DNA of 64,000 nt from Nannobrachium achirus (Eukaryota; Chordata; Actinopteri; Myctophiformes; Myctophidae): positions 6,071,604-6,135,603 of the forward strand of contig OY997653.1 of the NCBI GenBank assembly GCA_963921795.1. Direction: 5' to 3'. Numbering within the stretch: the first letter of the stretch is position 1; each line of letters begins with the position of its first letter. The translations under genes and the position numbers were made by a program. Shown here in pieces: positions 12,877 to 63,700 of this stretch. The notes beneath the pieces are model-generated. The model made no database searches. It was not told where the DNA came from and saw nothing but the letters and a program-made list of their open reading frames with translations.

Positions 12877-12945
12877 ATAGCTGGTCGGCAAGCTCACAAT
12901 GCGTTGCACTTAGATTGCCACCCATTGTGAGCTTGTCATGGGACC
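12877..12945. repeat. Hairpin-family copy, diverged
   Basis: Contains 'caagctcacaatg' and, 30 bases later, 'cattgtgagcttg', flanked by 'aatagct' on the left. It matches the hairpin family described at 15789-15968 in core and spacing, but the outer right arm is lost. Confidence 0.7.
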
Positions 12946-12994
12946 GTCTCCCATGAGCCCTTATGGTACAGTGGTTAAAATGTATATTTTATGA

Positions 12995-13461
12995 CAGGGG
13001 TCTTCAACAGGGGGTCTGGGACCCATAGGGGGTCCTGAGAGTCCCGTAGGAGAGGCCTCTGAATCTTTGTGTGATAGGATACTTTTACATGAACCCTAGC
13101 ATCCCTATTCTGTGGAGAATTTAAGCCAAAAATAGCAGATGTACAAACTCACAACGCCTCACAGTGCGAGGCATTGTGAGCTTGTAGAATGGCTATTTTT
13201 GGCAAAGAGGTTTGGTGTAGAGGGGGAAAAGAGCAGACTGTACAGAGCCAAAGGTCAAGTATTGAGGGTTTAAATGCTTGAATGTTTGAAAATATACATT
13301 AAGATGAATCCAACACTGATGATAGTGGAATCAAACAAGCCTACGAAGTTAACTATGACATTTATGAAAAGTTTTAATCGCAATAAAATGTTATACAATA
13401 TGACTTCTTCATCTCTCTCTCTCAGCTAAGGATCTTGGCCTGAAAACGTTGAAGACCTCTG
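12995..13461. mobile_element. Non-autonomous hAT-type element carrying a hairpin copy
   Basis: Ends 'caggggtcttcaac' at 12995 and the complement of 'cagaggtcttcaac' at 13461 pair with one mismatch. The flanks ttttatga and ttttagtg agree at six of eight positions, consistent with an old 8-base duplication. The hairpin at 13125-13203 sits inside. Confidence 0.7.
13125..13203. repeat. Hairpin-family copy inside a hAT-type element
   Basis: Left arm 13125-13154 (gccaaaaatagcagatgtac...) pairs with right arm 13173-13203 (...ggctatttttggc) with a few mismatches. The outermost gcc/ggc pair lies outside the shared AAAATAGC edge of the family, so the flank is palindromic too. Confidence 0.88.
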
Positions 13462-15766
13462 TTTTAGTGTATTTAACTTCCCTCTGTATTATATGTACAA
13501 CACATAAACCAATATAGTACATATTAACAAAACAGTTATTTTTATATTGCAATAATAATGTGTGTGGTTGAAATTCAATCCCAAAGGCTTCAACCTGATT
13601 TGTGCAACTGGAGGTCCAGTCAAAACATTCTAGTGTCCTTCTGCCAACTAAACTTGACATTGTCTTGGAATGCCCATTATAAGGACAGTTGTTCTATCTA
13701 TGTGCTCTGATAGCCTTTGCATCTCAGTGATATGTTGTTCCATAAGTCAACTAAAAAAACAAAGGAACTGTCCATTTTCAATGATATTTAATATCATTGA
13801 ACCTGATAGTCATTGTTGTGCACAACTTAGAGCATAAATGTATTAATAGTGTGGTTTAAAAAACCTGCTTTTATAAGTTAAAAAGCGATCCAAGCTAATT
13901 ACAACTGTTAAATTAAATAGATTTAAAATTACTCAAAAGCCCTCCTCTCAACACAGACCACCGAGGGTACTGATACACTTACATTGCAAACAAAAGTCCT
14001 CTGTCCTCATAGACAGGTCAACCCTGTAAAAGTCAAATATTTAGATGAAAAACATCTGAAGTTAGGTGTCACCTTTCAGATGTTTTTGCAGGAGGCTAAA
14101 TGTTTTCCAGTAGATAACAATATGAATGCAAAATAATTCCAATCCTTCCACATCATTCACACAATACTGTTGGGGGCTTTACGCACTACTTATCATGCTA
14201 AAAGGAATACATGTGTTGCCGGCTAGGTGTGAACTAGTGGGGCCACCGTAGTGCTACCGCCATGTTTCACTTCCGCATTCCCTTCAATAATGTTCACTAT
14301 TTAAAGTGCAGTCGGCAACCCAAACAGAAGCGTTTGGTGTCGGCTGCAGGGTTTTCGCGACCGTGGTCTTTTTGTGTTCACTGTTTCCTGATCTAGAGTT
14401 GAGTGCAGGGCTGTCTGAGGTGCCATGTCTCCTGTTGCACTGAGGGGACTTTGATTGAACGTCCATGCTTCCCATTTGGGAATGATTCAGAACGGAGTGA
14501 CCACCACACTGCTGTTTTGTTTAGATTAAGTTTATGATTTTGTTTCTTTTGTATTGAGCCATTTCTTATGTTAAATATTTGTTTATTTCCTTTGTTTCCC
14601 CCAAATATTATTTACTATCTAACTTACTACTGGGCGCTGAGGGGAACAGCCAGGTCCGCTGCAGGGGGTCACCATAGGACACTATTATAGCCCACTATAG
14701 TAAGACTTTGAGTGGAAGCGAGCACCTCTTTTCACGGTGTCGCCTGTTTTCATTGCATGCTGTGTGCTTGTGTGTTTTTTAACTTGTTTTATTACTTCGT
14801 CTTCTGGGTAATAGTTCCTTTTAGCGTAACTTTCCCCCCCTGTAAAGCAGTCCCACTGTTACTCTGCCCGTTGATATTTAAATCCTATGATTTTAGTATT
14901 GATATTTTATACAGTGCCTTGTATTATTGTTTTAACTATTGATATAATAAATTCATACTAATGTTTGCCTGCAGAACTTAATAAACCCTATTTGTGTTTG
15001 GGGAAACTTCTAAGTCTCAAAACCTTGTTTCTTACTTGTTTGTGGGGATCCCAAGTTAAACTGGCTGTACTGAGTATTTCATTCCTCGATTTTCCTCGAG
15101 GTGGCGTCGTCTGGTAATTTGAGTAAATGCTAAGCCGCACCTGGTCACACATGCCAGGCATGCAAACGTGTAGCTTTTCGGCGAAAATCGCCGTTTTCAA
15201 TCCAAATTGGGCACTTGTGTGATTCGTGCAGAAAAGGTATAAAAATGTTTGGGGGGGGTGGGGGGGTCGTATATCGAGGGCGAGGCCAGGAGCGATCTTT
15301 TTGACGGACCATATACTGGCACTCAGTCTGAGAACCAGAGGAAAAACAGCGCCCTCTCTGTTCACTTGATGATGCCATGCTGGACGCCGTGCGAGCCTCA
15401 ACAAAAATCAAGCCACAGCTGTGAGTGTGTTGACTGCAAGCGGCTGGACTGACTGTCGTGTTTGGGGTTTCGCTTCAATGGTAAATGGACATACAGTAAC
15501 CTAACGTTGGTGAAGACGGAAGAAACGAAAGGTAAGAGATACAACTGTTTAGAAATGCATCATTTGGAACTATCAAAACAAAGAGCAGTGGTTTTGTGAT
15601 GGTATATTTTTGTCGGAGGACAGCTGGTGCTGTCACATGCACGTACGCTATTATCTAGTAAACCTGCTATGAAAAATACTGTGGGAACGCTGTGGTTTGC
15701 CCGTGTGTCGGCGACTAAAATGCCCCTGCTAAAGTAATAATGTTTTATAAACTGCAAATTGACTAC
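13462..15766. other. Spacer, possible 5-prime region of the downstream gene
   Basis: Mostly unique sequence. 13787-13810 holds a small AT palindrome (tcaatgatatttaatatcatt). 15040-15530 is richer in CpG and ends in two donor-like sites, 'caatg|gtaaat' near 15479 and 'cgaaag|gtaaga' near 15530, so it could hold promoter and non-coding first exon(s) for the gene starting at 16606. G-runs at 15250-15268 are low complexity. No protein exon is recognisable. Confidence 0.4.
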
Positions 15767-15968
15767 GCCGTTCACCGGGTCGCACGAAATGGCAGATGTA
15801 CAAGCTCACAACGCGACGCGTTGTGAGCTTGTATATCTGCTATTCAGCTTGACGTTAATGCGTATACTTCGCCGTTCACCGGGTCGCACGTCGAAAATGG
15901 CAGATCTACAAGCTCAACGCGCCGCGTCCGCGACGCGTTGTGAGCTTGTTGATCTGCTATTTTCGACG
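15767..15968. repeat. Two hairpin-family copies in a 103-bp tandem duplication
   Basis: Two palindromes lie side by side: 15789-15844 and 15889-15968. The first has the core 'caagctcacaacgcg' facing its complement around one base. The second has arms from 'cgtcgaaaatggcagatc' to 'gatctgctattttcgacg'. Each is preceded by the same 'cgccgttcaccgggtcgcac' (15767 and 15870), so a unit of about 103 bases was duplicated, yet the loops differ (gcgacgc against a longer GC-rich loop). This pair shows best the family consensus: AAAATAGC, AGATCTACAAGCTCACAAC, CpG-rich loop, then the complement. Confidence 0.92.
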
Positions 15969-16605
15969 CTCGAGCCGTCGTACGACGAACAATACATTTT
16001 GGACCATAAACACGTTCACTGGTGTAAACTAGTAGGCAAATATTGTACTTTTAATCCATTAAATGTATTTGAAAACGTTTATAAATACTTGTGAAAACTT
16101 GAAATGGGATAGGCCTATTCTGCATAATGAGTTATTTTACTTTTGGTACTTTGACTTTGAGTAGCCTACATTTTGAAATCAGGATTATTATTTAATAAAA
16201 ATAAAATAACTAAATAAAAAATAAAAGAACTAGGCTATCTATGTTGCAGTATTGGTACTTTTAGTTAGGGCAGGCTATTACAACTTGCAACAAAACAATG
16301 CATGGGTGTTAGTAGGCATACAATGGTTCTTTAAGTGGATCCTAAAGGGGGGTCTAAATTGACACATACAGGTCTGTAACCCTGACAGTGTACAAATAGA
16401 ACTAAATAGACTGAGTTAAGGGAAGACCTTGACATTTGAGCTAATGTAGTAGACTAGATAAAATAAGCTTGCACTCACTGTCAGGTTTATTTTTGTTTCC
16501 TTGACATTAATGTCCACCTTTTTTGACAGGTATAACATGTATATTCTTAAATCCTGTGTGTAATCTAACTAAACCTAAAACAAATCTGTTTCCTTACTTT
16601 TCAGA
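15969..16605. other. Spacer ahead of the hAT-like gene
   Basis: Includes at 16100-16270 a fragment of the 'acttttggtacttt' repeat family also found at 2209 and 62863. A pyrimidine-rich 'ccttacttttcag' acceptor ends at 16604, so exon 16605 onward is likely not the first exon of the transcript. Confidence 0.5.
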
Positions 16606-25560
<8,955 letters not shown>

Positions 25561-25572
<12 letters not shown>

Positions 25573-25799
25573 ACTGTCCACTTAACTGTTTTGTTTTATT
25601 TTGCTATAATTTATATTTTCAGTTTTGTTATTTATTTTGATTTTTGCACAAATGTTGGAAGTACACTGCCTCCTCACTGACAGAACTGTCCAGTTTAACG
25701 GTTTTGTTTTATTTTGCTATAATTTATATTTTCAGTTTTGTTATTTATTTTGATTTTGATATTTGCACAAATGTTGGAAGTACACTGCCTCCTCACTGA
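25561..25799 (+). repeat. Tandem duplication spanning the stop codon and 3-prime UTR
   Basis: Units of about 109 and 118 bases both start with 'cctcctcactga', which in the first unit encodes the last residues and the stop of the hAT-like protein. A third, cut-off unit starts at 25788. The duplication does not change the protein. Confidence 0.85.
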
Positions 25800-26690
25800 C
25801 AGTTTAACTGTGTATATGTTGCTACTTCACACAAAGGTGTTGTGTGCTGATATTTGCACACTTGTTGGGAGTACAAGTGTTTAAAAGGTACTCAAGTTTG
25901 CCCCTACGTTTTCAAAATGGGGTTGGTTGATAAAATGTTTTGTAATATTCACTCTACAAAGTTTTCAAATGTTGTGGAGTAAAAGTACAAGATCTGGATC
26001 TGAGCTGTAGTGGAGTAAAGGTTTTGTAAATGAAGTACAAATACCTCAATTGCACTTTTTTTGAGAGTTGCTTTCAGAACCTCTGAGCCTCAAAATAAAA
26101 CTGAGACAAGTCTGGAATAATGGCATTTGTCTTCATTTCTTTCTATGTCATCAGATCAGGGATTGGGAATGTTAATATCTTGCTCAATACTGATTGGGAA
26201 TGTTAATATCTTGCTCAATACTGATTGTATAATGTGTACTGATTGACTCAGGTGTAGTATAACCTTGTAGTACACTGGTACCAATGAAAGCTGTTTAAGT
26301 GAGTTAGAATCATGCGCATCGATCCGAAAAACCTCAATTTTTTTTCCAAGCGCGCGAGCGAAGCACCCCGCCTGCGCAGACGTTGTCACCTTTTTCACCT
26401 TGTGTCTGTTTGCATGTCTGACATGCAAATGAGTTGTCCCTCCATTCAGCAATAGGGTTACACCCTAACCAATTCTCACCTGTCCTTTAACAATGGGACA
26501 AGCATCCTCCTTCTACATTACAGCATGAATAAACGTGTGTCTTCTAACTGATTAGATACATACCGTATAGAGTTTCAAACCATGAGAAAACAACAGAAAA
26601 TAATTGGTAACTGAGAGAATTGATCAAATTGATGGTGATTAATTTAATTAAATTGTGTAACCACCTGGAACACACACACACACACACACA
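25800..26690. other. 3-prime flank of the hAT-like gene
   Basis: A possible polyadenylation signal AATAAA lies at about 26094. 25890-26060 contains diverged pieces of the 'gagtaaaagtac' hAT-type repeat. 26157-26218 is a 31-base unit twice in tandem (gattgggaatgttaatatct...). No other gene is visible. Confidence 0.5.
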
Positions 26691-26694
26691 CACA

Positions 26695-26697
<3 letters not shown>
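26670..26697. repeat. Short (AC)n tract
   Basis: About 26 bases of AC next to a repeated block that also occurs, inverted, at 58080-58210. Confidence 0.9.
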
Positions 26698-27860
<1,163 letters not shown>

Positions 27861-27897
27861 CATACTTAAATCTGGTAAAATGTGACTTTTCTGGGTA

Positions 27898-30559: not shown

Positions 30560-33190
30560 TACAGTCCTACATTATTTTTAAGGCTGGGAATGCAAGTGAA
30601 GGGACATCCACACTGACTTGGGTATCACCCCACTGTGTATTTATATAAGTGCTGTCCACAGTGTTCACATCCATAGGGTTGCTCCCTAGTATGGCTTTTC
30701 TGGTGTTTTTTAAGGTTGAACATTTGAGAGAAGTGTTGTCCACACTGATCACACCCATAAGGTTTCTCTCATGTGTGAATTCTCTGGTGGGTTTTAAGGT
30801 TGGACAATTTAGAGAAGTGTTGTCCACACTGGTCACAGCCATACAGTTTCTCTCCAGTGCGAATTCTCTGGTGGCTTTCAAGGTCTCTCATTTCAGAAAA
30901 GTGTTGTCCACACTGATCACATCCATAGGGTTTCTCTTCTGTGTGAATTCTCTGGTGGGTTTTAAGGTTGGACATTCGAGAGAAGTGTTGTCCACACTGA
31001 TCACACCCATAAGGTTTCTCTCCTGTGTGAATTCTCTGGTGGGTTTTAAGGTTGGACAATGTAGAGAAGTGTTGTCCACACTGGTCACAGCCATAAGGTT
31101 TCTCTCCTGTGTGAATTCTCTGGTGGCTTTCAAGGTCTCTCTTTTTAGAAAAGTGTTGTCCACACTGATCACATCCATAGGGTTTCTCTCCTGTGTGAAT
31201 TCTCTGGTGGGTTTTAAGGTTGGACAATTTAGAGAAGCGTTGTCCACACTGGTCACAGCCATAAGGTTTCTCTCCAGTGTGAATTCTCTGGTGGCTTTCA
31301 AGGTCTCTCTTTTTAGAAAAGTGTTGTCCACACTGATCACATCCATAGGGTTTCTCTCCTGTGTGAATTCTCTGGTGGGTTTTAAGGTTGGACAATTTAG
31401 AGAAGCGTTGTCCACACTGGTCACAGCCATAAGGTTTCTCTCCAGTGTGAATTCTCTGGTGGCTTTCAAGGTCTCTCTTTTTAGAAAAGTGTTGTCCACA
31501 CTGATCACATCCATAGGGTTTCTCTCCTGTGTGAATTCTCTGGTGGGTTTTAAGGTTGGACAATTTAGAGAAGCGTTGTCCACACTGGTCACAGCCATAA
31601 GGTTTCTCTCCAGTGTGAATTCTCTGGTGGCTTTCAAGGTCTCTCTTTTTAGAAAAGTGTTGTCCACACTGATCACATCCATAGGGTTTCTCTCCTGTGT
31701 GAATTCTCTGGTGGGTTTTAAGGTTGGACAATTTAGAGAAGCGTTGTCCACACTGGTCACAGCCATAAGGTTTCTCTCCAGTGTGAATTCTCTGGTGGCT
31801 TTCAAGGTCTCTCTTTTTAGAAAAGTGTTGTCCACACTGATCACATCCATAGGGTTTCTCTCCTGTGTGAATTCTCTGGTGGGTTTTAAGGTTGGACAAT
31901 TTAGAGAAGCGTTGTCCACACTGGTCACAGCCATAAGGTTTCTCTCCAGTGTGAATTCTCTGGTGGCTTTCAAGGTCTCTCTTTTTAGAAAAGTGTTGTC
32001 CACACTGATCACATCCATAGGGTTTCTCTCCTGTGTGAATTCTCTGGTGGGTTTTAAGGTTGGACAATTTAGAGAAGCGTTGTCCACACTGGTCACAGCC
32101 ATAAGGTTTCTCTCCAGTGTGAATTCTCTGGTGGCTTTCAAGGTCTCTCTTTTTAGAAAAGTGTTGTCCACACTGATCACATCCATAGGGTTTCTCTCCT
32201 GTGTGAATTCTCTGGTGGGTTTTAAGGTTGGACAATTTAGAGAAGCGTTGTCCACACTGGTCACAGCCATAAGGTTTCTCTCCAGTGTGAATTCTCTGGT
32301 GGCTTTCAAGGTCTCTCTTTTCAGAAAAGTGTTGTCCACACTGATCACATCCATAGGGTTTCTCCCCAGTATGGATTTTCTGGTGTTTCTTAAGGTTGGA
32401 CAACTCAGAGAAGCGTTGTCCACACTGATCACATTCATATGGTTTCTCTCCTGTGTGAATTCTCTGGTGGATTTTAAGGGTGGACAACACAGAGAAGCGT
32501 TGTCCACAATGATCACATTCATATGGTTTCTCTCCTGTGTGAATCTTCAGGTGGCTTTTAAGGACGAACAATGTAGAGAAGTGTTGTCCACACTGATCAC
32601 ACCCATACGGTTTCTCTCCTGTGTGAATTCTCTGGTGGATTTTAAGGTTGGACATTTGAGAGAAGTGTTGTCCACACTGATCACACCCATAAGGTTTCTC
32701 TCCTGTGTGAATTCTCTGGTGGGTTTTAAGGTTTCTCTTTTCAGAAAAGTGTTGTCCACACTGGTCACAGCCATAAGGTTTCTCTCCAGTGTGAATTCTT
32801 TGGTGGCTTTCAAGGTTTCTCTTTTCAGAAAAGTGTTGTCCACACTGATCACATCCATAGGATTTCTCTCCTGTGTGAATTCTCTGGTGGGTTTTAAGGT
32901 TGGACATTTGAGAGAATTGCTGTCCACACTGATCACACCCATACGGTTTCTCTCCTGTGTGAATTCTCTGGTGGGTTTTAAAGCCGAACAATGTAGAGAA
33001 GCGTTGTCCACACTGATCACACCCATATGGTTTCTCTCCTGTGTGAATTCTCTGGTGGGTTTTAAGGGTGGACAACACAGAGAAGCGTTTTCCACACTGA
33101 TCACATTCATATGGTTTCTCTGCTGTGTGAATTCTCTGATGGATTTTAAGTTTGGAGATGCTAAGGAAGTGTTTTCCACACTGGTCACAG
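30560..33190 (-). pseudogene. C2H2 zinc-finger gene copy 1, 5-prime truncated, 29 fingers
   Basis: On the minus strand an open frame from 33190 to 30769 encodes 29 consecutive C2H2 fingers with Thr-Gly-Glu-Lys-Pro linkers, no KRAB or other amino-terminal domain. Such proteins bind DNA in the nucleus. Seven two-finger modules in the middle (31100-32270) are nearly identical 168-base repeats. Helices alternate Lys-Leu-Ser-Asn-Leu-Lys-Thr and Lys-Lys-Arg-Asp-Leu-Glu-Ser. At the 3-prime end Gly has become a TGA stop (30769-30771); two more finger-like units remain beyond it, to about 30610. At 33191 homology to copies 2 and 3 stops abruptly, with a TAA just upstream, so the first exon and start are missing. 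Transcribed rescue by another 5-prime exon is possible. Confidence 0.8.
31137..32312 (-). repeat. Seven 168-bp repeats (two-finger modules)
   Basis: The word 'ctctctttttagaaaagtg' recurs at 31137, 31305, 31473, 31641, 31809, 31977 and 32145, exactly 168 bases apart, and the DNA between is almost base-identical. Each unit is two 28-residue fingers. Copies 2 and 3 have only one to three such pairs. Confidence 0.95.
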
Positions 33191-34122
33191 CAAGATTAAA
33201 ACATTTCATTCCTCATTTCTTCAGAATTTTCAACCAAACATGGCAAAACTGGTGTGACTGTCCTGACCTTGTTTCTCAAAGTGGGAACTTGAATAAAACT
33301 AAGAAAAAGAATTGCTAAAAATCATTTGAAAATGAATTTAGGCTAAAAATATGTCTATTTGTCAGCCTATATCTTTTCAAAGTCAAAGCATAATGTTTTC
33401 AGTCATTTCTGATCAAAAACATTTTGTCCCCCAAACCAAAATCATTTGGTGTGACACTAGTTTGGACAAATTAAACAGGCAATTATTTGGACACCTATTG
33501 GCTAGAGAGGTCCTTCTTCTGTAAGGCTATTCAGCACTCCCAGCACAACTGCAAGACAGGTGTCTGAGGTGAGTTATGATTTTAACATTTTCATGAAATG
33601 CCATCTTGTTGAAACTTTGACAAACTCACCACTTTGGATGTCTGTTGGTGTGACACCTTTTCATTAAAAAAAGCTTAAGTTATTTGAAGTTTTGGTCATA
33701 TTTCCATGTTGATCTAGGTTGCTTTGTTATAGCTAGCATGCTGTTAGCATGCTAGTGTGTACATAGTAGCCTCAAGGTAAACCTAAATGCAGAAAACGTA
33801 ATATGGTGTGACACTTAATCATCATGGTGTGACATGTCTGCTTGTCACGCCATATGATTTGATTGTCACACCATATGATTTATACTGTATTTAACTACAG
33901 ATATAACAATACATAACAAAGTTCCATGTTTCTTTTGTACATTTAAACATTTGTTTTAAACATTTTTACATAAAATGTAATTTAGCTTCATTCAGTGATA
34001 CTTCAAATTCATCAGACAGAGCAGAAACCCCTTCACAGAAACCTTAACATATTGTTTCAATCTAAACAATATTTTCTCTTTGTCTTAAACTATACATTCC
34101 ATTTTCTTTTGTCAGCTGGAAA

Positions 34123-34317
34123 ATGACAAGTGCTGAGAGAACGAGAAAGTACAGGGAGAAACTAAACAATGACCCAGCAAGGAGAGAGGAGCCAAAGGGG
34201 CGAGACTGCATTTTCGACGAAGAGCAGGAGGTTGTCTGTGGCATAGCAGAACCGCAACAAGGCAGCCGGTTTGCTACCCTCACCAAATACGACTGGCTGA
34301 TGTACAATACAGTCTAA
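34123..34317 (+). CDS. Short candidate exon, basic 'Arg-Lys-Tyr-Arg-Glu-Lys' motif
   Basis: Begins Met-Thr-Ser-Ala-Glu-Arg-Thr-Arg-Lys-Tyr-Arg-Glu-Lys-Leu, after an acceptor-like 'ttttgtcag' at 34115. Similar Ser-Ala-Glu-Arg-x-Arg-x-Tyr-Arg-Glu-Lys starts are known from fish repeat-encoded proteins, from memory and not checked. The remainder has no recognisable domain and no good donor follows. Confidence 0.3.
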   Translation: MTSAERTRKYREKLNNDPARREEPKGRDCIFDEEQEVVCGIAEPQQGSRFATLTKYDWLMYNTV

Positions 34318-34404: not shown

Positions 34405-34471
34405 CGAAAATAGCTGATCTACAAGCTCTCAACACGTTGTGCTGCGAGAGCTTGTAGATCAGCTATTTTCG
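34405..34471. repeat. Hairpin-family copy with perfect 26-bp arms
   Basis: Left arm 34405-34430 (cgaaaatagctgatctacaa...) and right arm 34446-34471 are exact complements around a 15-base loop. The position normally A in 'agatc' is T on the left and A on the right, that is, the change is matched on both arms. Confidence 0.95.
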
Positions 34472-36088
34472 GAGTTGCGCAACCCAGCACTCTTTAGCTA
34501 GTGGAGATGTGGTGTAATGTCATGATTCCTAATTACATTTGTTCAACACAAAATGCTGTGTTCAAGTTCAGGAGACTTCGGAAAAAAGCAATTTACCTGA
34601 ATGCCGAGTTCTGTTTCCACTAATTGGTGTTAATAAAATGTTGCCTTGGCTCCAAGTGTGGCTATGCGCCTTATTGTCTCTTTAGGATCCTTCTGCCGTG
34701 GGCCGGCAGAAGACTTAGGTGTGCGTAGCATTCCTGTGCACATCCTCATCATCCATCTACTACTACAATTCTTTCTTATCCCATGTTAAAGCCCTACAAT
34801 AATATCCTGTTCAGAAATATTAAGGCCATGTTATCCTGGGTAATTGTTTAATCAATCAGTAAAGTTCAGTACTCACTAATAGGTAGGTTAAAACACAGTT
34901 TGCTTTGACACATGAAGATATGATCATACGGTGTGACACTAAATCATTTGGTGTGACATTCCAAATAGTGAAAAATCATACCTTTATTAATGATTAAACC
35001 AAAAAAAATTTTATGGATTACATAGAGAATATTATCAGGAAGAGTCACAAATATTTGTGTAATTTTAGAGAAAGTTTTGACAGAATACATTTAAAATATG
35101 TTGTAAGATCATGAACATGGGCCTCACACAGAGTGTCGATTATGAAAGAAATATACAGATATAATTAATTTTCAAAAAACTATAGTGGATCACTGGTTAG
35201 TTATGATAAAGGACTTTGATAAAGTGAGTAACTTAAGAAAGATGTACTCCATTTTCATTTTATGAACAATTATTTTCATGTCACACCATATGACGATTTT
35301 AGGCACAAGTACAACAAACTGCTGAATAAAGTCTGATTCCAATAACATATCTAAAAACAAAAAGTATTTCCATAAGGTTGAGAGTGAGTAGAACAAAAGT
35401 AAATAACTTTTATGCCTGCAATTTAAAGTTTTTTTAAAAACACATTTTTTGGGGCGTCACGTCACTGACCCATATATCATTGAATAGGCATGAATATAAA
35501 CTATGGGACAAGCACAATCAATAACATGGATATATTTACAGTGTCAACAGGATTCAACAATCTGAGCATTGTAGAAGCACACAAGCAGGAGTCAATAGAA
35601 CAGACTCAAAGCAGCAATCTCTAATTCTATAGAGAAGGGATGTAAATGTTCTCATTATTAATGTTGAGATAAATGATCTAAATTGTACATGAACTCTTAT
35701 TGTGAAGTGCTTAACCCGGAAGTGTTTGTTATTTACCCCGGAAGTACTTGCTATGACTATTTAAGGCTGACTTAGGGTGCGTTCGGAAATGTGCACTCAA
35801 TGCACTGGTGTGCCATGTTGTCGTTCGTTTATTCGGTGCGCTTGGTGCATTGTCGTTCGGAAATCCAGTGTGCGGCATTTAGCTGGGGACCACCTGGAAC
35901 CCCCCTCAGGGACCTGCCTTAACGTATAGATTGATAAAACAATGAGAATAAAAACTATTAACGACATGAACCCAATTGATTGAGCCAGCAGTAGTCTCCA
36001 TGTCTCTATGTCTAGGTCCCTCTTGATTTTGCTCTACTATCATTGCCAAATTGTTAATTGGAGTGTATTGCAATGCAACTTGCTGCAA

Positions 36089-38227
36089 TGTGTGAATTCT
36101 CTGGTGGCTTTCAAGGTCTCTCTTTTTAGAAAAGTGTTGTCCACACTGATCACACCCATAAGGTTTCTCTCATGTGTGAATTCTCTGGTGGGTTTTAAGG
36201 TTGGACAATTTAGAGAAGTGTTGTCCACACTGGTCACAGCCATACAGTTTCTCACCAGTGTGAATTCTCTGGTGGCTTTCAAGGTCTCTCATTTCAGAAA
36301 AGTGTTGTCCACACTGATCACATCCATAGGGTTTCTCTTCTGTGTGAATTCTCTGGTGGGTTTTAAGGTTGGACATTCGAGAGAAGTGTTGTCCACACTG
36401 ATCACACCCATAAGGTTTCTCTCCTGTGTGAATTCTCTGGTGGGTTTTAAGGTTGGACAATTTAGAGAAGTGTTGTCCACACTGGTCACAGCCATAAGGT
36501 TTCTCTCCTGTGTGAATTCTCTGGTGGCTTTCAAGGTCTCTCTTTTTAGAAAAGTGTTGTCCACACTGATCACATCCATAGGGTTTCTCTCCTGTGTGAA
36601 TTCTCTGGTGGGTTTTAAGGTTGGACAATTTAGAGAAGCGTTGTCCACACTGGTCACAGCCATAAGGTTTCTCTCCAGTGTGAATTCTCTGGTGGCTTTC
36701 AAGGTCTCTCTTTTTAGAAAAGTGTTGTCCACACTGATCACATCCATAGGGTTTCTCTCCTGTGTGAATTCTCAGGTGGGTTTTAAGGTTGGACAATTTA
36801 GAGAAGCGTTGTCCACACTGGTCACAGCCATAAGGTTTCTCTCCAGTGTGAATTCTCTGGTGGCTTTCAAGGTCTCTCTTTTCAGAAAAGTGTTGTCCAC
36901 ACTGATCACATCCATAGGGTTTCTCCCCAGTATGGATTTTCTGGTGTTTCTTAAGGTTGGACAACACAGAGAAGCGTTGTCCACACTGATCACATTCATA
37001 TGGTTTCTCTCCTGTGTGAATTCTCTGGTGGATTTTAAGGGTGGACAACACAGAGAAGCGTTGTCCACACTGATCACATTCATATGGTTTCTCTCCTGTG
37101 TGAATCTTCAGGTGGCTTTTAAGGACGAACAATGTAGAGAAGTGTTGTCCACACTGATCACACCCATACGGTTTCTCTCCTGTGTGAATTCTCTGGTGGA
37201 TTTTAAGGTTGGACATTTGAGAGAAGTGTTGTCCACACTGATCACACCCATAAGGTTTCTCTCCTGTGTGAATTCTCTGGTGGGTTTTAAGGTTTCTCTT
37301 TTCAGAAAAGTGTTGTCCACACTGGTCACAGCCATAAGGTTTCTCTCCAGGTTTCTCTTTTCAGAAAAGTGTTGTCCACACTGATCACATCCATAGGATT
37401 TCTCTCCTGTGTGAATTCTCTGGTGGGTTTTAAGGTTGGACATTTGAGAGAATTGTTGTCCACACTGATCACACCCATACGGTTTCTCTCCTGTGTGAAT
37501 TCTCTGGTGGGTTTTAAAGCCGAACAATGTAGAGAAGCGTTGTCCACACTGATCACACCCATATGGTTTCTCTCCTGTGTGAATTCTCTGGTGGGTTTTA
37601 AGGGTGGACAACACAGAGAAGCGTTTTCCACACTGATCACATTCATATTGTTTCTCTGCTGTGTGAATTCTCTGATGGATTTTAAGTTTGGAGATGCTAA
37701 GGAAGTGTTTTCCACACTGGTCACAGCAGTGTTGTTTTTGCTTAGCCAACCTCCTCTTTTCCTTCACCTCTGGTAGGACAGGGAAGCCAGATTGATGATG
37801 TAACACTGGATTGGAAACAAAGACAAAAGAAAGTTTTTTGAGACTTGGACTTTAAAGTTGTTAAAGGACAACTTTGACACTTTCGACACTCACATAATTG
37901 TGACTCACTAATGTTCATCATAAACAATATATATTACAATGTTTAATATTGCAATGGCTTCCATTATAGCACATATTGTGCATCGTATAAATATATACAT
38001 CACATACTAAATACATACTATAATCATGTAAAATGTTGTCAAAGATACAGGTCAAATTACAAATAAACAAAATTTAAGATTAAGAATAAAATGTATATTG
38101 AGGAAACCCAACAGGGTGAAGGGAGGCAGAGTAAGTAACATACCAAGGTCTTTGTTTTCCTCCTGTTCATCAGAGTTGAGTTTGAGCGAGTTCATCTTAT
38201 CCTGAAGTCTGGAGTCCACAGTCAGAT
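36089..38227 (-). pseudogene. C2H2 zinc-finger gene copy 2, frameshifted, 3-prime end lost
   Basis: Exon 38227-38144 includes [11 protein letters not shown] (ATG at 38195-38193) and splices to 37805 onward, where Val-Leu-His-His-Gln-Ser-Gly leads into the finger array. An acceptor-like 'tgatcag' before 38227 suggests earlier exons. Five fingers in, a 25-base deletion at about 37350 shifts the frame; a second open stretch (37216-36170) holds the later fingers, again closed by the TGA seen in copy 1. At 36088 the gene is cut and joined to an unrelated repeat block, so the 3-prime UTR is missing. Product would be a truncated DNA-binding protein; more likely a pseudogene. Confidence 0.75.
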
Positions 38228-38573
38228 CTGATCAGAAATGATAGACTTGTGGAAAAATGACACAGACCAACTCTTCTTATACTAGAGAGTCTGGGGTGAA
38301 AACACTAACTGCTCTGAATGATTGGCCAAAGACAACAATAGAACCATCTCTCCACCAATCACAATCTAACATACTGTGCTCCACCCCTCCCAGACATGCT
38401 CTATGCAACCTTCTACAAAAGTGGTAACAACATTATCTATTTATGACTAAAATATCATCATATTAAACACTGCTTAATTTGCCAAATAACAGTATCAGTT
38501 GTTAAGATTGACAATATAAGTTGCCAATGAAACACAGAAGTTATAAGTGTTGTCAAATGTTGTCATTTTATCA
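37810..38573. repeat. Shared upstream flank of zinc-finger copies 2 and 3
   Basis: Nearly identical to 42530-43306, and the match continues past the inserted element at 38574-39032 to about 40335 (partner 44640). It includes the intron and the exon with the ATG. This dates the duplication of copies 2 and 3 as recent. Confidence 0.9.
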
Positions 38574-39032
38574 CATACATGGGCAACTGGCGGCCCGGGG
38601 GCCACATGCGGCCCCCACCTTCACTTAATGCGGCCCTCAGGTTAATACCAGAATACTGATATATTGTTGACTAGTATAGTAGTATTCAAATGGCTTATTT
38701 TATGTCCAATGTATTTGTATTTAGGTTCATAAAGTTAACATGAGTATATAACTAAATGCCTTTGAAATTAAATCAAAATGTTACATGTCAGGATTCCAAT
38801 TAAAAAATAATTCAGGATTCCAATTCAAAAGAAGCAAAAATAGCAGATATACAAGCTCAAAACAAATCGCAGCGCGATGCGTTTTGAGCTTGTAGATCTG
38901 CAATTTTTGCTTCTTTTGTATAAGATACTAGAATGACCAAGTAGGACGTACTGTAGCAATATGCAATGCGGCCCTCTGGAGTGAAGGTGGAAATATTGTG
39001 GCCCTCACCATCATCAAAGTTGCCCACCCCTG
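38574..39032. mobile_element. Non-autonomous hAT-type insertion with empty-site partner
   Basis: The 8-base word ttttatca is present on both sides (38566-38573 and 39033-39040). In the paralogous block at 43300 the same position reads once, without the insert, which is an empty site. The right end 'gttgcccacccctg' is a typical hAT end; the left end is slightly decayed (catacatgggcaac). It holds 'gcggccc' words and a hairpin copy. Confidence 0.95.
38826..38918. repeat. Hairpin-family copy with long palindromic flanks
   Basis: Arms of 38 bases (38826-38863, 38881-38918) pair with two mismatches around a GC-rich 17-base loop. Ten outer bases, 'caaaagaagc' and 'gcttcttttg', lie outside the family core and still pair. 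Confidence 0.93.
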
Positions 39033-39040
39033 TTTTATCA

Positions 39041-39869
39041 AATGGCCCCTTGCCTTTTTTCTAGTGTTTCCCTATATTTTTCTAGTGTCTCCCATATATT
39101 CCCTATAATAGGGAGACATAAAGGAAGTCTGATCTATCTAATCCATTTGTTTTGTTTTCATGTTATTACTAAAAGTTGAATAAACAGAATAACTTCTGTG
39201 GACTATATCAATAGCACAAGTGACTGTGTAGAATTTCTTTGGCACAAGGACATTTCACTTTTTGGACTCAAGACTATTAAGACAAAATAAAAATTATCCA
39301 TGTGTAATCAACAGCAAAGCTATGGAGGAAATAATATTGAGAAGGAAAAATATGTTGAGATGAGTATATTGCAATATGCAGCAATTGGTATAAAATAATC
39401 TGCAATGGTGATTCTGTCCCACTGGGATTAAACAAATTAAAACATATATTTTCGGGGAAACCCCCTGTTTTGCAATGTAACTATTGTACCTTTGTCTTCC
39501 CTTTTTATTAATATCACCTAGATGTTTTTCCTTTGGTACTTTAAATTGCAATAATGAGGCAATGAAAATACCCTCTCCCCCCATTCACTGCCACTATAAA
39601 AACAATCTGCCCAGGGTCAAATGTACCACCATAGTAACAGGGCAGAATGGGGCGGGATTTGCAAAAGACAGAATTCATCAGAGCTATAAGTCATCCTTTG
39701 TGCTTTACAGTCTTGCATTAACGTACTGGAGGATAATGTTAATCACCAATCTGCTCCATTGTGGACAAAATGTATGCATCTTTATAGCTATGCATTTGAA
39801 TGTGTCAGTGAATCAAAGCAGTATATGGTCCATTGATGAGTGAATGGTTTCTCTCATGCAAGCGCGCAC

Positions 39870-42938: not shown

Positions 42939-44172
42939 CTTATCCTGAAGTCTGGAGTCCACAGTCAGATCTGATCAGAAATGATAGACTTGTGGAAAAA
43001 TGACACAGACCAACTCTTCTTATACTAGAGAGTCTGGGGTGAAAACACTAACTGCTCTGAATGATTGGCCAAAGACAACAATAGAACCATCTCTCCACCA
43101 ATCACAATCTAACATACTCCACCCCTCCCAGACATGCTCTATGCAACCTTCTACAAAAATGGTAACAACATTATCTATTTATGACTAAAATATCATCATA
43201 TTAAACACTGCTTCATTTGCCAAATAACAGTATCAGTTGTTAAGATTGACAATATAAGTTGAAGTAATAACAGAAGTAATAAGTGTTGTCAAATGTTGTC
43301 ATTTTATCAAATGGCCCCTTGCCTTTTTTCTAGTGTTTCCCTATATTTTTCTAGTGTCTCCCATATATTCCCTATAATAGGGAGACATAAAGGAAGTCTG
43401 ATCTATCTAATCCATTTGTTTTGTTTTCATGTTATTACTAAAAGTTGAATAAACAGAATAACTTCTGTGGACTATATCAATAGCACAAGTGACTGTGTAG
43501 AATTTCTTTGGCACAAGGACATTTCACTTTTTGGACTCAAGACTATTTAGACAAAATAAAAATGATCCATGTGTAATCAACAGCAAAGCTATGGAGGAAA
43601 TAATATTGAGAAGGAAAAATATGTTGAGATGAGTATATTGCAATATGCAGCAATTGGTAGTGGGGCTGTAATGAGGATATGAAAAAAAAAATCCCATCCA
43701 CTTCCACTATAAAAGAATATGCAATGGTGATTCTGTCCCACTGGGATTAAACAAATTAAAACATATATTTTCGGGGAAACCCCCTGTTTTGCAATGTAAC
43801 TACTGTACCTTTGTCTTCCTTTTTTATTAATATCACCTAGATGTTTTTCCTTTGGTACTTTAAATTGCAATAATGAGGCAATGAAAATACCCTCTCCCCC
43901 CATTCACTGCCACTATAAAAACAATCTGCCCAGGGTCAAATGTAACAGGGCAGAATGGGGCGGGATTTGCAAAAGACAGAATTCATCAGAGCTATAAGTC
44001 ATCCTTTGTGCTTTACAGTCTTGCATTAACGTACTGGAGGATAATGTTAATCACCAATCTGCTCCATTGTGGACAAAATGTATGCATCTTTATAGCTATG
44101 CATTTGGATGTGTCAGTGAATCAAAGCAGTATATGGTCCATTGATGAGTGAATGGTTTCTCTCATGCAAGCG

Positions 44173-47463: not shown

Positions 47464-47758
47464 GATCTGAGGGTTGTAGGACAGGGTTAATATTAGTTAA
47501 TTAATGAAATACTGAAATAATTGAAATAAACTTAAAATGGATCATTACAAAAAAGAAAGAAAAAGAATGACTCGTTCTGATTACAAAACTAACTAGAAAA
47601 ACTAAATAGAATCATACACCACTCACACTTGTTTTAAGACTTTGCTAATATTGCACCATTCGAATATTTGAATTGGATGTGAAATATTCCAATGTGTTAG
47701 CTATGCTATATATATGCATGTCATTGTCAAGTAACAAATAAAGCACAATAGTCTTAAA

Positions 47759-48181: not shown

Positions 48182-48232
48182 CAAACAAGAGTTGAGACCA
48201 GAAAGCAGAGTTGCAGTCTTACACACTTCTCT

Positions 48233-51229: not shown

Positions 51230-51231
51230 GT

Positions 51232-54758: not shown

Positions 54759-54797
54759 CATTTGTTTTCCTTCTTGTCCTCTTTGCAAACCTGTTCA

Positions 54798-55640
54798 GTA
54801 TTTCTGACAGTGCGAACAGCAGTCTGCAGTCTAACAACAAAAAGGTGTCAGACACTGTAGTTTTAATTGGAGCTCTCAATAAATCCCTGTCAAATATGAG
54901 GTCAAAGGATAGCTGCCGCCACGGATATCTGAGCATCCTGGCAAAAACAAATGAGATATTGAAGTTTAATGACTTTGACAATTGGGACGTAGCTGTGCGA
55001 ACTCGTATATATCAGATGCCCTCTTCCTGGGTTTGCGACGTGTCTAGTTCAGTGGGATATCGAACAATAGTCAAGTGCGATGATGATTTGCGCACCTTGT
55101 TAAACCAGATAGTGGACTACCAACTGAACGAGTTGAACGCCATGTTCCAAAATGACACGCATGGTTTCATGAGATCAGCTGAACTTTTCCTGACAACACC
55201 CCGTGGCGATGATATAAAGGAAATGACAAATAGTCTAAATCTCTCTGGAAAGCTTTTGGGCCTAAGTGTCACAGAAGAAGAGCTTTCCCAATTTGTGCAT
55301 AGAGGAAAGCAAGCCTTTGGGAGCCTAATCAGGGTTTTGGACACATGTAAACAGGATGTTTTCCCAGGCGTCAATTCTTTCCTAAAGGCGTTAGTTACGC
55401 TACCGATGACAAGATGCAACGTTCAACGCCTATGTTCTAGCGTCAAAAGAATACAAACGGCAAGCAGAAATATAGTGCTCAACATCTAGTGTAAAAAGAA
55501 TACAAACGGCAAGGAGATATATAGTGCTCAACAACATGTGTCTCCTGGAGTTTGAGAGAGACCTGACGGAAGGTTTGGACCACGATGCAATTATCGAGAT
55601 TTTCAAGAGCAAACCCGTCGTCTCTGTATTTTACAGGCCT
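54798..55640 (+). pseudogene. hAT transposase carboxy-terminal exon (ZMYM1/P52rIPK-like)
   Basis: After 'aacctgttcag' the frame reads Ile-Ser-Asp-Ser-Ala-Asn, then Gln-Ser-Asn-Asn-Lys-Lys-Val, ending with Arg-Cys-Asn-Val-Gln-Arg-Leu-Cys-Ser-Ser-Val-Lys-Arg-Ile-Gln-Thr, which corresponds to the hAT dimerisation block (usually Ser-Phe-Ser-x-Leu-Lys-Arg-Ile-Lys-Thr). A 48-base tandem duplication (about 55438-55530) follows and brings a stop; beyond it the other frame continues with Met-Cys-Leu-Leu-Glu-Phe-Glu-Arg-Asp-Leu-Thr. It matches the missing end of the class of gene at 27.9-29.4 kb. It lies just past the FLYWCH unit, in the same orientation. Confidence 0.65.
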
Positions 55641-56019
55641 AATGTGTGGAGCATGCAGGCTTGTAGTTGCACTGTATGGTACATAGTATGACCTGTAGTT
55701 AAACAAACATAATTATTGCATTGCTTTTTTTTTTATGAGTAAGTGCCTTTTCAGCCTTCATTTGTTTAGAAAGTGTGTAATTGAAGACATGGACCTCAGG
55801 AAGTAGAAACCGTGCTGTTTTGTTTTTGGCACACCTGCATTCTATTCTTCCTTTATCATTATTTCTTTGCTACTTTTGTATTATTGTGCTATCAAGTGTA
55901 AGGAACCAAAACACTATGTTTACTATACTTGTATGCAAGATGAAACAATAAAACTCTTAAAACTTTAATCATGTGTTTCACTGCCAAGTTTATTCTATAC
56001 TGGATGGGGGCCATATTTA

Positions 56020-56020
<1 letters not shown>
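55641..56020. other. 3-prime flank of the hAT exon
   Basis: Includes AATAAA at about 55948, a likely polyadenylation signal for the hAT-like gene. No other gene seen. Confidence 0.5.
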
Positions 56021-56116
<96 letters not shown>

Positions 56117-56122
56117 ATATAT
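56021..56122. repeat. (AT)n microsatellite with T-run
   Basis: About 80 bases of AT followed by a T-run. It forms a perfect self-palindrome. Confidence 0.97.
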
Positions 56123-57224
56123 ATAATTATGTGTTTACCTCCCATTTTGGTCTCCTGATTTCCAGCCCTGTTTTAGCTGTACTTGTGCTGGTTTTAAGGG
56201 ATGGTGTAATAAAGATATATTTTGTCAGTTCTTCCTGGACAGTTTCAGTCAGACTGGGACCTCAACCATGACACTCCCATATCTTTCAGAAGCGATGCAC
56301 TGTGTAAACACCACCTATATTACATTAATGTTTGACATCATAAAGCAGGTTAAAACAAACTAAAGAATGAAAGAAATTCAAAAATAAAAAATAAATAAAC
56401 AAACCACACTCTGTACAACCTGACCAGCCTGGTATCAGCTGGAGCCTGGAGGGGCCAGTCTGACTGAAACTACAGGAAACATAGTAGTTTGTTAACTGGG
56501 CATTCTGTACCATGATGTCTGGGTGCAAAATCTGCAAAGTGTCCCCACAAAACCTACTCCAGTGAATGTCCACTACTGAATTATCAAAACACGCTTCAAA
56601 GTCATGTTGGATCTGGGATCAAAATATGCAAAGTTGCCTTACAATACTCCAGTGAATATCCACTACTGAATTTAACATACTGTAGTGGATCATATCAGTG
56701 TGTGGCTCTCTCAACAATAGACACATAAGCATAGTCTTTATTTAGTTATGGATAGAACTCAATTCAGCTGTGGAGAGTCACCGTTTCTTAAATAAGTACA
56801 ATTCTGAGCTTGCCTGCTTTTACTTTACTTGAGTTTTACATGTTTGAATACTTTATGTCTACTTTATAACATCCCAGAGGCAAATGTATGTTTCTTTCTC
56901 TCCATTGAATGATTTGATTTTTCTGGAGGTGCTAATGTGTATGTCTGTCAGGGTATCACTGTACTGTAGCCCACTAGAATCCTCTCTAGTTGTTAATAGA
57001 ACTAATCATTCTACTCTGGGATCTCACATAGAATATTTCACATACATTTAACTCAGTGTTGTGGTGGAAGTCATATCACCCTCATGTATCTGAGATTAGT
57101 ATTACTTCCTCTGGCAAGTCTAGTTTTATTGATGATGAAGATGATAAACAACTGTTCTCCTGTGTTGGGCCATTTTAGCTTACTGTTCTACATTCCAGAA
57201 AAGTCATATTTTACCTGATTTAAA
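56123..57224. repeat. Repeat blocks, inverted relatives of 44.6-45.0 kb
   Basis: 56500-56890 is related, in reverse, to 44650-45000. 57000-57224 is related, in reverse, to 40020-40240 and 44330-44560 (same 'gtgttgtggtggaagtcat' and 'ggaagtcatatcaccct' words). No gene recognised. Confidence 0.7.
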
Positions 57225-58210
<986 letters not shown>

Positions 58211-58236
58211 GTAACATGAAACCCACATGGACCCTT

Positions 58237-58329
<93 letters not shown>
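58237..58329. repeat. (TG)n microsatellite
   Basis: About 92 bases of pure TG inserted in the 'gggtccatttggtt' repeat context. Confidence 0.97.
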
Positions 58330-58331
<2 letters not shown>

Positions 58332-59023
58332 GGGGTCCATTTGGTTTCATTTGAAGCTATCAATAGTTCAATTATTGTTACCAACATGCCAACATCAATA
58401 CAGCATGGAATTGTGGACAAAATCTTTGTCCAACCGGTAACAAATTATTCTACGTTCTGGGTCTGAGAGGCGGGTGGTCCCTGGCTCAAATGGACAATAA
58501 ATATAGACCTGGACAAAAGGTTTGAAAACCTTTGCTTTAGTGGCTTGTCCATTTTCTAACCTGATTCCAGTCTACTTTTTAAATTGTTTTCCCTACTCCA
58601 GGGGTGTCCACACTTTTTTCATTTAGAAAGACACATTAGAAAGTATTAAAACACCCAAGGGCCGACTATATCTCATGACACAACTTTGAGTCGGACCATA
58701 ACAAAGTCACATACCGGTATATGCATGGTAATTACAATATTTTATTTAACCATCATCATCAATATCCCTGGCCTAAACTATGCTGGAAACACAGAAGCCG
58801 ACCATGATTACATTCTTCTGAATGTTTTATTTTTTATACAATTATGTATATAAAAGCATTCACTTTTGAATAATTCTTTTTAAAGCAATTTCTCTATACT
58901 CAAGGAAAGGTTTGATTAGGCATCCTTTACTTGAAAGTTGACCAGTCGTACAGTAGGCCTATCTATACTTTGACTCAAGTAGGCCTATAAGGGTTGAGTA
59001 CTTTGTCCCCCGATGGTTAATTG

Positions 59024-59026
59024 ACC

Positions 59027-59114
<88 letters not shown>
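59024..59114. repeat. C-run followed by (CA)n
   Basis: About 18 Cs and then some 70 bases of CA. It corresponds to the position of the short C/G run at 29565-29572 in the related hAT gene flank, so the tract expanded after the copies separated. Confidence 0.95.
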
Positions 59115-59119
<5 letters not shown>

Positions 59120-59269
59120 ACCAATCAATTCAATGTGTAGGACAGATACTTGATGATAAAAATAGACAAGACCACACCCACCTGTTTTGCATAAGGTCTT
59201 CAACAAGGTCCTCTCACACAGTATATAAACAGCACAGAACAGTGGTTGTGTCATTACTACAGCTAACCA

Positions 59270-60276
<1,007 letters not shown>

Positions 60277-60439
60277 GTCCGTGTATACGTCGGCCACTGA
60301 CTAATTTGATTTAAATTTAACTTTTAAATCAGAATACTGTCCAAAACAGTCCCAAACGGCCCGTTTCTGAATCCTGTTTGGAAGTGGCAAAACAAAACTT
60401 AGAATTAAGTATTGTAAGAACAAAATGAGACCCGGTTCG

Positions 60440-60716
60440 AGCTTCTCGTTGCTGTGGTTCAAAACAGAATGAAGGACTTGGAATCTGGTCCAGCTGTTAC
60501 TCGAGAACAAGCAATCGGTTTTGATACACGCTGCTCCTACTCCGCCCCTCCCTCCCTCCCTCCCTCGCTCCCTCGCTCGCTCGCTCGCTCCTCCCTCCTC
60601 CCTCCTCCCTCCTCCCGCTCCCCCTCCTTCGCCCCGGAAGCAGTCTCCAACTTTGGTCTCACTCTCGGCGCGAAAGCTGCAGTTCTTCACAACTTCGGTT
60701 CATTATCATTGTTAAC
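60440..60716 (+). promoter_or_regulatory. CpG-rich promoter region
   Basis: CT-rich 'cctccct' repeats and 'gctcgctc' at 60543-60600 lead to a CpG-dense stretch with 'cgccccggaagc' (60630), an ETS-type CCGGAAG word, about 85 bases before the ATG at 60717. No TATA box. This is the normal look of a vertebrate CpG promoter. Confidence 0.6.
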
Positions 60717-63700
60717 ATGGAGGAGTTAGAGTACGTGTTATACCGAGGAAACCTGCGCCAAACCTTTTCGGACCCCGATATGACCACCGAGAAGATATCT
60801 CTGGTGTTCCAGGTACTGTAACTGTATGTTTTTTATGCGCCACGTTGTTTGCTTATCGTGATAAAATTAATCCATGGATTGTACCTACCGGCTAAAAGCA
60901 GTGTTTTACGGCAAACGCCATAACCACGTTATGCATCATACCCCTTAAAACAAATACGATGACTACGCTGTGTTTTGATCAGAAGTGTCACTGATTTTGA
61001 ATAAATAATGTACTGGGCCGAACCCTTTGTTTTAAGTTAAGAGGTGAGACGGCGATGCCTGTTGCTTGCATGCATGCAACAGCTCATGCATGCATAGCCT
61101 GGTCCAACCTATGTTACCCAGGTTCTATGTTCCCCACCGGGCGCACCCGGTTCAAACACACATTTCTACAGTGATTACAGTGCTGTCAAGTCTATGAAGC
61201 CATCTATGACATTTTAGAGAAAGTTTGATCTGCGGCACAATTGTATGTGTAGTGTAGGACCGTACCTATGTTCCCCAGGTTCTATGTTCCCCACTTTCTT
61301 ACCACCTAAACCTACCCCTAACCCTAACCATAACCTCACTAAACTAATGCTGTGAGGTGGGGAAGGGTGCGTACCTTTTGCGCGAAGCCCGAAAGCGCGA
61401 AGTGGGGAAATGTCTCCTACCGCACCGTTAGCGCGAACGCATAGGAATGCATGCAAATGCAGGCTATTAGCCGACTATTAGCACCCTTCGGCTATCGGCT
61501 TCACTTTGCGGGGGGAGGGGAGGCGTGAGGACATTTTAAGCCCTAAGAAACTACACAACCACACAATATATTTGACTAAATGAAAAAGGGTGCCCCCTGT
61601 CGAAACTATTGTACTACCACACAATATATCTTCCTGGACCCTTATTGTGAAGGGCTGAAGGCAGAGAAATGATCTACAAGCTCACGTTGTCTCGTGGATG
61701 AGACGTGTTGTGAGCTTGCAGATCAGCTATTTTGCGAGACAAGCTGAGTGCAGACAGCACTGCATATTATCAACGTTCACAAGGAGCTGCGTGCTCAGTG
61801 CGTGCACAGTGGAGCATGTGAATGAAAAGAGAGACATTGTACTACCATACATTATCGAGCACTGCATATTATCAGCGTTCACAAGGAGCTGAGCATGTGA
61901 ATGAAAAGAGAGACATTGTACTACCATACAATATCGAGCACTGCATATTATCAACGTTCACAAGGAGCTGTACTACCATACAATATCGGTGCGGTAGGAG
62001 AATCGAGCACTGCATATTATCAACATTCACAAGGAGCTGAGCATGTGAATGAAAAGAGAGACATTGTACTACCATACAATATCGAGCACTGCATATTATC
62101 AACGTTCACAAGGAGCTGTACTACCATACAATATCGGTGCGGTAGGAGACATTTCCCCACTTCGCGCTAACGGTGCGGTAGGAGACATTTCCCCACTTCG
62201 CGCTTTCGGGCTTCGCGCTTTCGGGACTTTCCCGTTTGAACCATCTCAATATATATATATTAAGACTGTAACCACGTATAAACACAGAAATTGACATCAC
62301 TGCCCCCCATTACCGAATAAGAGTTGATCATTGACTCTGTTTGCTCCTTTTCCCTTCAAATCTCTTGCCCAAAATATATCTAGATATGCTATTTTTGGTA
62401 AAATCACACAAACATTTGGTGGGTCCCCCTGTAACTATGTGGATCCCATCCCAGAACTGTACCGTCATGAAACTGTAGGTCTACCTTTCCTATGCAAACT
62501 CCTAATAAAAGTCTTTAATCAATCAATCAATCAACTCCCTGACCTGTTAGTCATCACAGTAACAAAAATCTCTTTCTCCAGATATTTTCCCATTCAAAGT
62601 GGATGGTAGATACAGATTATCTGTATCTACCATCCACTTTGAATGGGAAAATATCTGGAGAAAGAGATTTTTTTTATCTGTTATCTGGCCCAGTGGGAAT
62701 GGGCCTTTAGCCTGTGTACCCCCACTTGCAGGCTACACCAGGGACCCCCATCACAGGGCTGTTACTGCTCTAGCAGTGATTTACTGCTCTAGCAGTGATT
62801 CTCAACCATTTAATTTCAAGGACCCCCAGTTTCACATGCCATAGTCTACACAAGAGTGTTGCCAGTGGTGTAAAGTAACTAAGTACATTTACTTAAGTAC
62901 AGTTGAGGTATTTATACTTTACTGGAGTATTTCCAGTTTTCAGTACTTTTACTTCTACTCCACTACATCTCGGATCCAAATATTGTACTTTTACTCCACT
63001 ACATTTATTTGAAAACTTTAGTGACTATTTACTTTGCAGATATACATTATAATATTATAAAACATACATGAACCACATTAGCCCTATTTTATACCATGGC
63101 TATTTGAAAAATATCCAAGTGTGAGCTTGTAGATCTGCTATTTTCAAACATGTTGTACTTTTACTTTTGGTACTCTAAGTACATTTTGATGCCAGCACTT
63201 TCATACTTTTACTCAAGTACATTTTGAATTCCATACATTTACTTGTGTACAGAGTATTTCTATAGTGCAGTATTGTTACTTTTACTTAAGTATAGAATGT
63301 GAGTACTTTTTCCAACACTGAGTGTTGCCAAATGAAACCATTTGGTTCTATTTGTACATTCTCAGAGTTACAGACACCATAAGGGTCCATTTGGTTCCTA
63401 GCTAGCCATCTAGCTGGGGACCCCCTGCAAAGTACCGCTTGGGGTCCCCAGACTTTGATAACTAATGCTGTAAGCATTAATGGGAATTTTCATTCTTTCT
63501 AAACAGGTCATTCCGAGTACCGTATACATTACGGATCACACGAACACAGCCATATTTGCAGACCGGGAAACAAAAAGTTTTCCTGGCTATAAACTGGACC
63601 ATCTGGGGCACTATGAGGTAGGCTACATTCAGTATTTGTTTGTTACCAGACACCTTTACAAACACATTGACTAAGAAATACAGGGTTAGGGTTAGGTGCA

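Follow-up and report, generated by a model that had tools for sequence, protein, structure and literature searches.

Short inverted-repeat elements of fish genomes, Angel among them, form hairpins and are abundant and non-coding, and fold-back amplification has reportedly been proposed for elements of the Angel type. Angel itself, going by its description, is one family with its own ends, whereas the palindrome that we report here from Nannobrachium achirus (Myctophidae) is internal to many families. We studied it in a window of 64,000 nt (contig OY997653.1 of assembly GCA_963921795.1, C16:6071604-6135603; G+C ∼0.41) and across the 1.66-Gb genome, to which all counts called genome-wide refer. 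Our conclusion is that it is probably a palindromic module that DNA transposons have spread, with arms that were perfect in the source copies, perhaps by way of hairpin-primed template switching. Among teleosts, hAT-type miniature inverted-repeat transposable elements (MITEs), for example those of Atlantic cod (PMC12368964), are likewise short, non-autonomous, and of high copy number; our case differs in that a single internal palindrome is common to several families whose ends differ. Amplification of a conserved module by carriage inside a DNA transposon has a counterpart in the V domain, which derives from a short interspersed nuclear element (SINE) and is described in one MITE, MER6/MER6A (PMC6887750); unlike the V domain, the module here is palindromic and resides in many families. 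None of the papers listed by our literature searches, judged by their titles and the opening of their abstracts, describes one palindrome common to many MITE families with 68,285 intact copies.

The module is a palindrome of ∼72 bp, (G)AAAATAGC[A]GATCTACAAGCTCACAACGCSTCGC-loop-complement, and its hairpins are genuine and far beyond chance. With up to two mismatches allowed, the 14-base arm AGATCTACAAGCTC has 15 matches in the window, as compared to 0.48 expected (100 shuffles, largest 2). Searching the whole assembly for the 19-base core, as a first-pass annotation of this DNA had proposed, yields 41,677 exact matches (20,659 + 21,018); genome-wide, two perfect 11-base arms spaced within 42–72 bases are found in 68,285 hairpins, and the reversed-pattern controls for the core search and for the both-arm search give 0. 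Folded as DNA, seven of the hairpin copies have z-scores from -4.5 to -14.1. The shuffles and reversed patterns together rule out chance or an assembly artefact as the source of the hairpins, an explanation to which we leave a vanishingly small probability. The window and neighbouring sequence (264 kb) hold 45 copies, or one per 5.9 kb, close to the annotation's one per ∼6 kb, and the palindromes, diverged copy, and halves that it listed are all present in the window. When as many as 5 of 21 bases may mismatch, this sample comprises 19 full and 26 half hairpins, two damaged palindromes (61665 and 12877) being counted among the halves at that threshold. No Rfam model matched the window at its gathering score, and a search of viral contigs returned no core match; a core match in one bacterial metagenome-assembled genome record was set aside, since about as much would arise by chance in 257 billion bases.

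All six complete palindromes of the window sit in multi-copy DNA, which rules out an independent host-free repeat for these six. Alignment of the flanks resolves several families that are unlike one another outside the palindrome. Transposons of the hAT superfamily have CAGnG-type ends and 8-bp target duplications, and hAT-type ends are found in six of our families (A, B, C, D, H, and I), with CAG..G ends and short terminal inverted repeats at both ends of A, C, H, and I and at one clear end of B and D. Three of the window copies are held by larger elements flanked by 8-bp duplications, exact for the B element (38574-39032) and the C element (62863-63320) and alike in five of eight bases for the A element (12995-13461); seven of eight bases agree for L035 and L019. 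It is from the generally known end motif and the 8-bp duplication, rather than from a transposable element library, that the hosts may be assigned to hAT-type MITEs. Family E has different inverted ends, of the ATCCACAAGTTTCC type. The MITE-like element of family A has the ends CAGGGGTCTTCAAC...GTTGAAGACCTCTG, its flanks are TTTTATGA and TTTTAGTG, and it carries a complete hairpin at 13125-13203 (fold z -7.7). The complete MITE-like element of family C has the ends CAGTGGTGTAAAGTAACT...CAACACTG (the left one also given as CAGTGGTGTAAAG), the duplication AGTGTTGC on both sides, and, by sequence match, a half hairpin on the minus strand at 63118-63148.

The MITE-like element of family B, hAT-type at its right end and diverged at its left, has TTTTATCA at both 38566-38573 and 39033-39040 and holds a complete hairpin at 38826-38918, with an outer arm extension CAAAAGAAG/CTTCTTTTG and a fold z of -14.1. 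The segment that bears this element (38434-38573 / 39041-39310) is duplicated, and its second copy, at 43172-43579 on the plus strand, is the empty site: there the flanks are joined, 400 of 410 aligned bases are identical, one TTTTATCA is present (at 43302), and no hairpin arm is seen. From the exact target duplication and the empty site it follows that the element moved as a unit and took the hairpin along. The complete hairpin of family T (34405-34471; CTCTCAAC..GAGAG arms, 26-bp perfect) lies within a nearly identical repeat, with which 10 of the 13 fetched stretches are collinear for ∼225 bp on each side; as for the others, L087 has the T arm type with one flank that diverges, and L085 and L086 belong to family A and have CTCTC arms. 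Such T-type (CTCTC) arms occur in 2,067 hairpins. Family M, represented by a mismatched hairpin at 61665-61736 (fold z -5.5), lies within a high-copy repeat, whose flanks match at 91–100% in dozens of listed places. The two remaining complete hairpins form a tandem pair at 15.8 kb, in a segment found at five places; the loop of the first (15786-15846) is shorter than in two paralogues, and the arms of the second (15889-15968) reach CGTCG/CGACG.

We masked the hairpin and set representatives of A, K, B, C, D, H, I, E, F, T, and M against one another at E 0.01. Similarity was found for A–K, for D–K (86 bp at 78%), for A–I (42 bp), and for F–I (53 bp); no other pair among these representatives was similar at that value. 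Counting A and K once, ten named families bear the core, in at least seven unlinked flank groups (A/K/D/I/F, B, C, E, H, T, and M), which identifies the hairpin as a module common to many elements and rules out a single transposon family as its source. The first-pass annotation had left open that the core might be an internal piece of one larger family with fixed flanks, which the number of families and flank groups contradicts; the unusual mode of spread that it offered among its readings is at least largely explained by transport inside DNA transposons, host elements that it had overlooked. The similarities among hosts indicate that some of them are linked and that ends do get exchanged. They could be taken to mean that the hosts all descend from a single MITE with the hairpin, its core staying similar as its flanks diverged or were swapped: A and K have a common interior, K and D a common end sequence, and A–I and F–I share short stretches. 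We find this very doubtful, given that the flanks of B, C, E, H, T, and M are dissimilar both mutually and to the A/K/D/I/F group with a nearly identical core, and that relatives of family C without the hairpin exist.

Across many contexts the common sequence stops near the same point, (G)AAAATAGC, which favours, as judged from the alignments, a discrete unit. The hairpin might on that account be a ∼72-bp palindromic mobile mini-element that was inserted independently into transposons, which then amplified it; its occurrence in hAT-type elements as well as in family E, whose ends are of another type, would fit, as would the hairpin-less relatives in family C. Yet in the flanks inspected no target duplication directly adjoins the hairpin ends AAAATAGC/GCTATTTT, as the annotation had already remarked, and where the flanks are alike, they are alike in the inverted sense. 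No enzyme is linked to the hairpin, and in three contexts (L006, L046, and L064) the part held in common falls short of the full unit at one side or at both. Hairpin-less copies in families H and I also bear on the question. Joined-flank searches gave 46 matches for H, of which 9 joint-spanning places were fetched, and 45 for I, of which 12 were fetched; the places were chosen for the joint match or an absent hairpin, so the proportions that follow are not frequencies. Eight of the nine H places keep one arm or a remnant, and in the ninth the hairpin is gone, some of the breaks lying near short repeats common to flank and loop (GCTG or CAGC). All 12 of the I places are without most or all of the hairpin, with scars that vary and in some cases AAAATA/TATTTT stubs. 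This variety suggests that the hairpin was ancestral in H and I and was repeatedly lost, and the fetched halves and hairpin-less copies of both families look like deletion derivatives, rather than like sites that the hairpin never entered. That neither direct repeats nor clean hairpin-only empty sites were seen argues against ordinary transposition of the hairpin, and we consider the mini-element a serious possibility that is nonetheless unlikely to be the right one.

In family C, the relatives without the hairpin have a different interior and are too diverged for junction mapping. Two such relatives lie in the window on the plus strand, one at 2209-2381, with ACATTCTGCATAATGAATAC in place of the hairpin of C, and a partial one at 16017-16200 that adjoins the 15.8-kb hairpins. 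L024 was considered as an ancestral C junction and is better explained by a deletion that joined two adjacent copies, one with the hairpin and one without, of the kind found in L013. Exact right-flank words give 1,979 occurrences of the hairpin-bearing C type versus 216 of the hairpin-less type, two words that differ in length and whose counts are of words rather than of copies inspected singly. A relative of family D without the hairpin, at 10163-10392, is missing its middle part.

The arms themselves raise the question of how a palindrome stays perfectly paired through so many copies. Genome-wide, the base after GATCTACAAGC is of the A type on both arms in 22,709 hairpins and of the T type on both arms in 22,839, as compared to 448 with mixed arms. 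Matched features also distinguish subfamilies, namely AGCACACA/TGTGTGCT and AAAACAGC in D, CAAAAC in B, CTCTC in T, and CAGCG in F. Among 61 hairpins of 53 bp, drawn from the first 100 listed both-arm matches with perfect outer arms required, 706 of 793 inner-stem cells are matched (1,000 shuffles: mean 596, maximum 630). A within-copy test of 52 full hairpins, at 29 positions per arm, found 36 cells that were changed and matched (2,000 shuffles: mean 13.2, maximum 29) and 24 that were changed on both sides to different bases. Arm matching is genuine, and it is a property of subfamily founders rather than of the upkeep of single copies.

Selection for pairing in the source elements might be responsible, if the hairpin aids the transposon as it transposes, replicates, or has its transcripts processed, and if variants with mismatched arms do not amplify. 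The matching of arms within subfamilies, the excess of the hairpin-bearing C word (∼nine to one), and the recurrence of the module across many families are in keeping with this idea; the lack of any Rfam match within the window, the unequal length and perhaps age of the two C words, and the existence of copies with the hairpin deleted are not, and we hold it to be unlikely. Our preferred reading, that of a transposon-borne module, would have the hairpin sit inside many non-autonomous DNA transposon families and be multiplied mainly by them, nested insertion and filler capture in gap repair being candidate routes of entry. In a source lineage the nascent strand would fold back at the loop and use the opposite arm, with some of the flank, as its template; copying of this kind, before each burst, would perfect and lengthen the palindrome and could be the origin of the matched variants and the outer extensions. 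Template-switch correction has been proposed for the hairpins of RNA genes (PMC8794818). Template-switch mutations predict matched arm changes in single events, and extension of the arms into the flanks would be our own addition to that prediction; they are described there for RNA genes, whereas the candidates here are the source lineages of high-copy transposons.

Outer extensions were assessed in 34 hairpins with both ends kept, 12 of them T-type. A complementary outer run of 5 to 10 bases is found in 7 of the 34, or 21%, versus 5% in cross pairs, which include members of the same family: the runs are of 10 bases in L011 (B), 9 in L061 (D), 6 and 7 in L047 and L063 (both C), 6 each in L055 (H) and L034 (I), and 5 in L045. 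Fold-back copying that overran the arm into the flank would yield such runs.

Several observations weigh against the transposon-borne module or against the switching that may accompany it. Insertion into a palindrome could leave similar outer runs, and in 27 of the 34 hairpins the run is shorter than 5 bases (0–3 in A, 0–2 in T, and 0–1 in L031 and L052). Within copies, one-sided changes outnumber matched ones by 231 to 36 in the 52 hairpins. Four other places differ one-sidedly from the 15.8-kb locus, so that these paralogues, having no matched change, catch no switching event. Because matching at the level of subfamilies reflects descent rather than events, by our own estimate perhaps 8 to 10 independent changes stand behind thousands of matched copies. 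The CTCTC/GAGAG variant is present in two hosts (T, and A in L085 and L086), and arm variants are hence not strictly host-bound; its presence in both would come either from two independent double changes or from exchange of the hairpin between families. The hairpin-less copies of H and I, resembling deletions, mean that insertion of the hairpin is not demonstrated in those families. As for the hosts, 7 of the 19 full hairpins in the 264 kb match library representatives from elsewhere, and 2 (those at 15.8 kb) match through the neighbouring C-like element; 8 match only the representative cut from the same place (T and B of these being confirmed elsewhere), and 2 (L010:5715 and L023:4846) match nothing in the small family library.

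The matched arm changes pointed out by the first-pass annotation accordingly hold between subfamilies and fail for most changes within single copies, and the pairing-dependent maintenance that it drew from them is unsupported as a process acting in place, both by the changes in single copies and by the 15.8-kb paralogues. Arm-to-arm conversion, which it also named, fares better: the near absence of mixed arms and some of the outer extensions are compatible with conversion in source lineages, although no event was caught and selection for pairing may be at work in its place. One may go further and picture a second-order mobile module that passes from one transposon family to another and leaves no target duplication, that uses hairpin-primed template switching to perfect and lengthen its arms wherever it arrives, and that persists for raising the amplification of its carriers, a proposal that we regard as speculative and improbable.

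The other hairpin copies of the window are incomplete. The diverged hairpin at 12877-12940 has paired inner arms and has lost its outer arms (fold z -4.5), and a half hairpin of one arm is recognized by sequence match on the plus strand at 19605-19640. Two further halves, at 27095-27120 on the minus strand and at 57907-57932 on the plus strand, are duplicates of each other: they lie one in each copy of an inverted duplication (26690-27524 / 57501-58250) with parts up to 97% identical. A third, partial copy of that duplication, at 35913-36079, joins zinc-finger coding sequence directly and is without the half hairpin. Long tandem C2H2-like zinc-finger repeats, recognized by eye, make up two similar clusters on the minus strand (30769-33195 and 36170-37851). 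About 90 bases upstream of the hairpin at 34405 is a short open frame (34066-34317, MTSAERTRKYREKLNNDP...), the downstream portion of which lies inside the same repeat as the hairpin; it has no Pfam match, and a Pfam search of three open frames in the window, taken together, found nothing. The window also has two strong inverted repeats, at 4621-4900 (117-nt arms, 90% complementary) and at 62560-62676 (58-nt arms, 98% complementary).

Among the stretches outside the window, L006:54-623 has one hairpin arm (GATATACAAGCTCACAG) within a tandem array with units of ∼31 and ∼52 bp, and L030:227-396 has four tandem hairpins with common arms, GATCTACAAGC...GCTTGTAGATCTACAAGC. A flank match in L009 that stops at the hairpin edge proved to be a run of N, and L029, which had the appearance of a long inverted duplication, has a right side of the family K kind and so may be a recombinant.

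Modules carried by transposons are already known, and what is unusual here is the presence of one palindrome in so many families. Its copies provide a very large natural sample on how hairpins stay perfectly paired, in which matched changes can be placed on the trees of subfamilies and on their bursts. The palindrome is also a candidate for a non-coding structural module on which selection among transposons acts.

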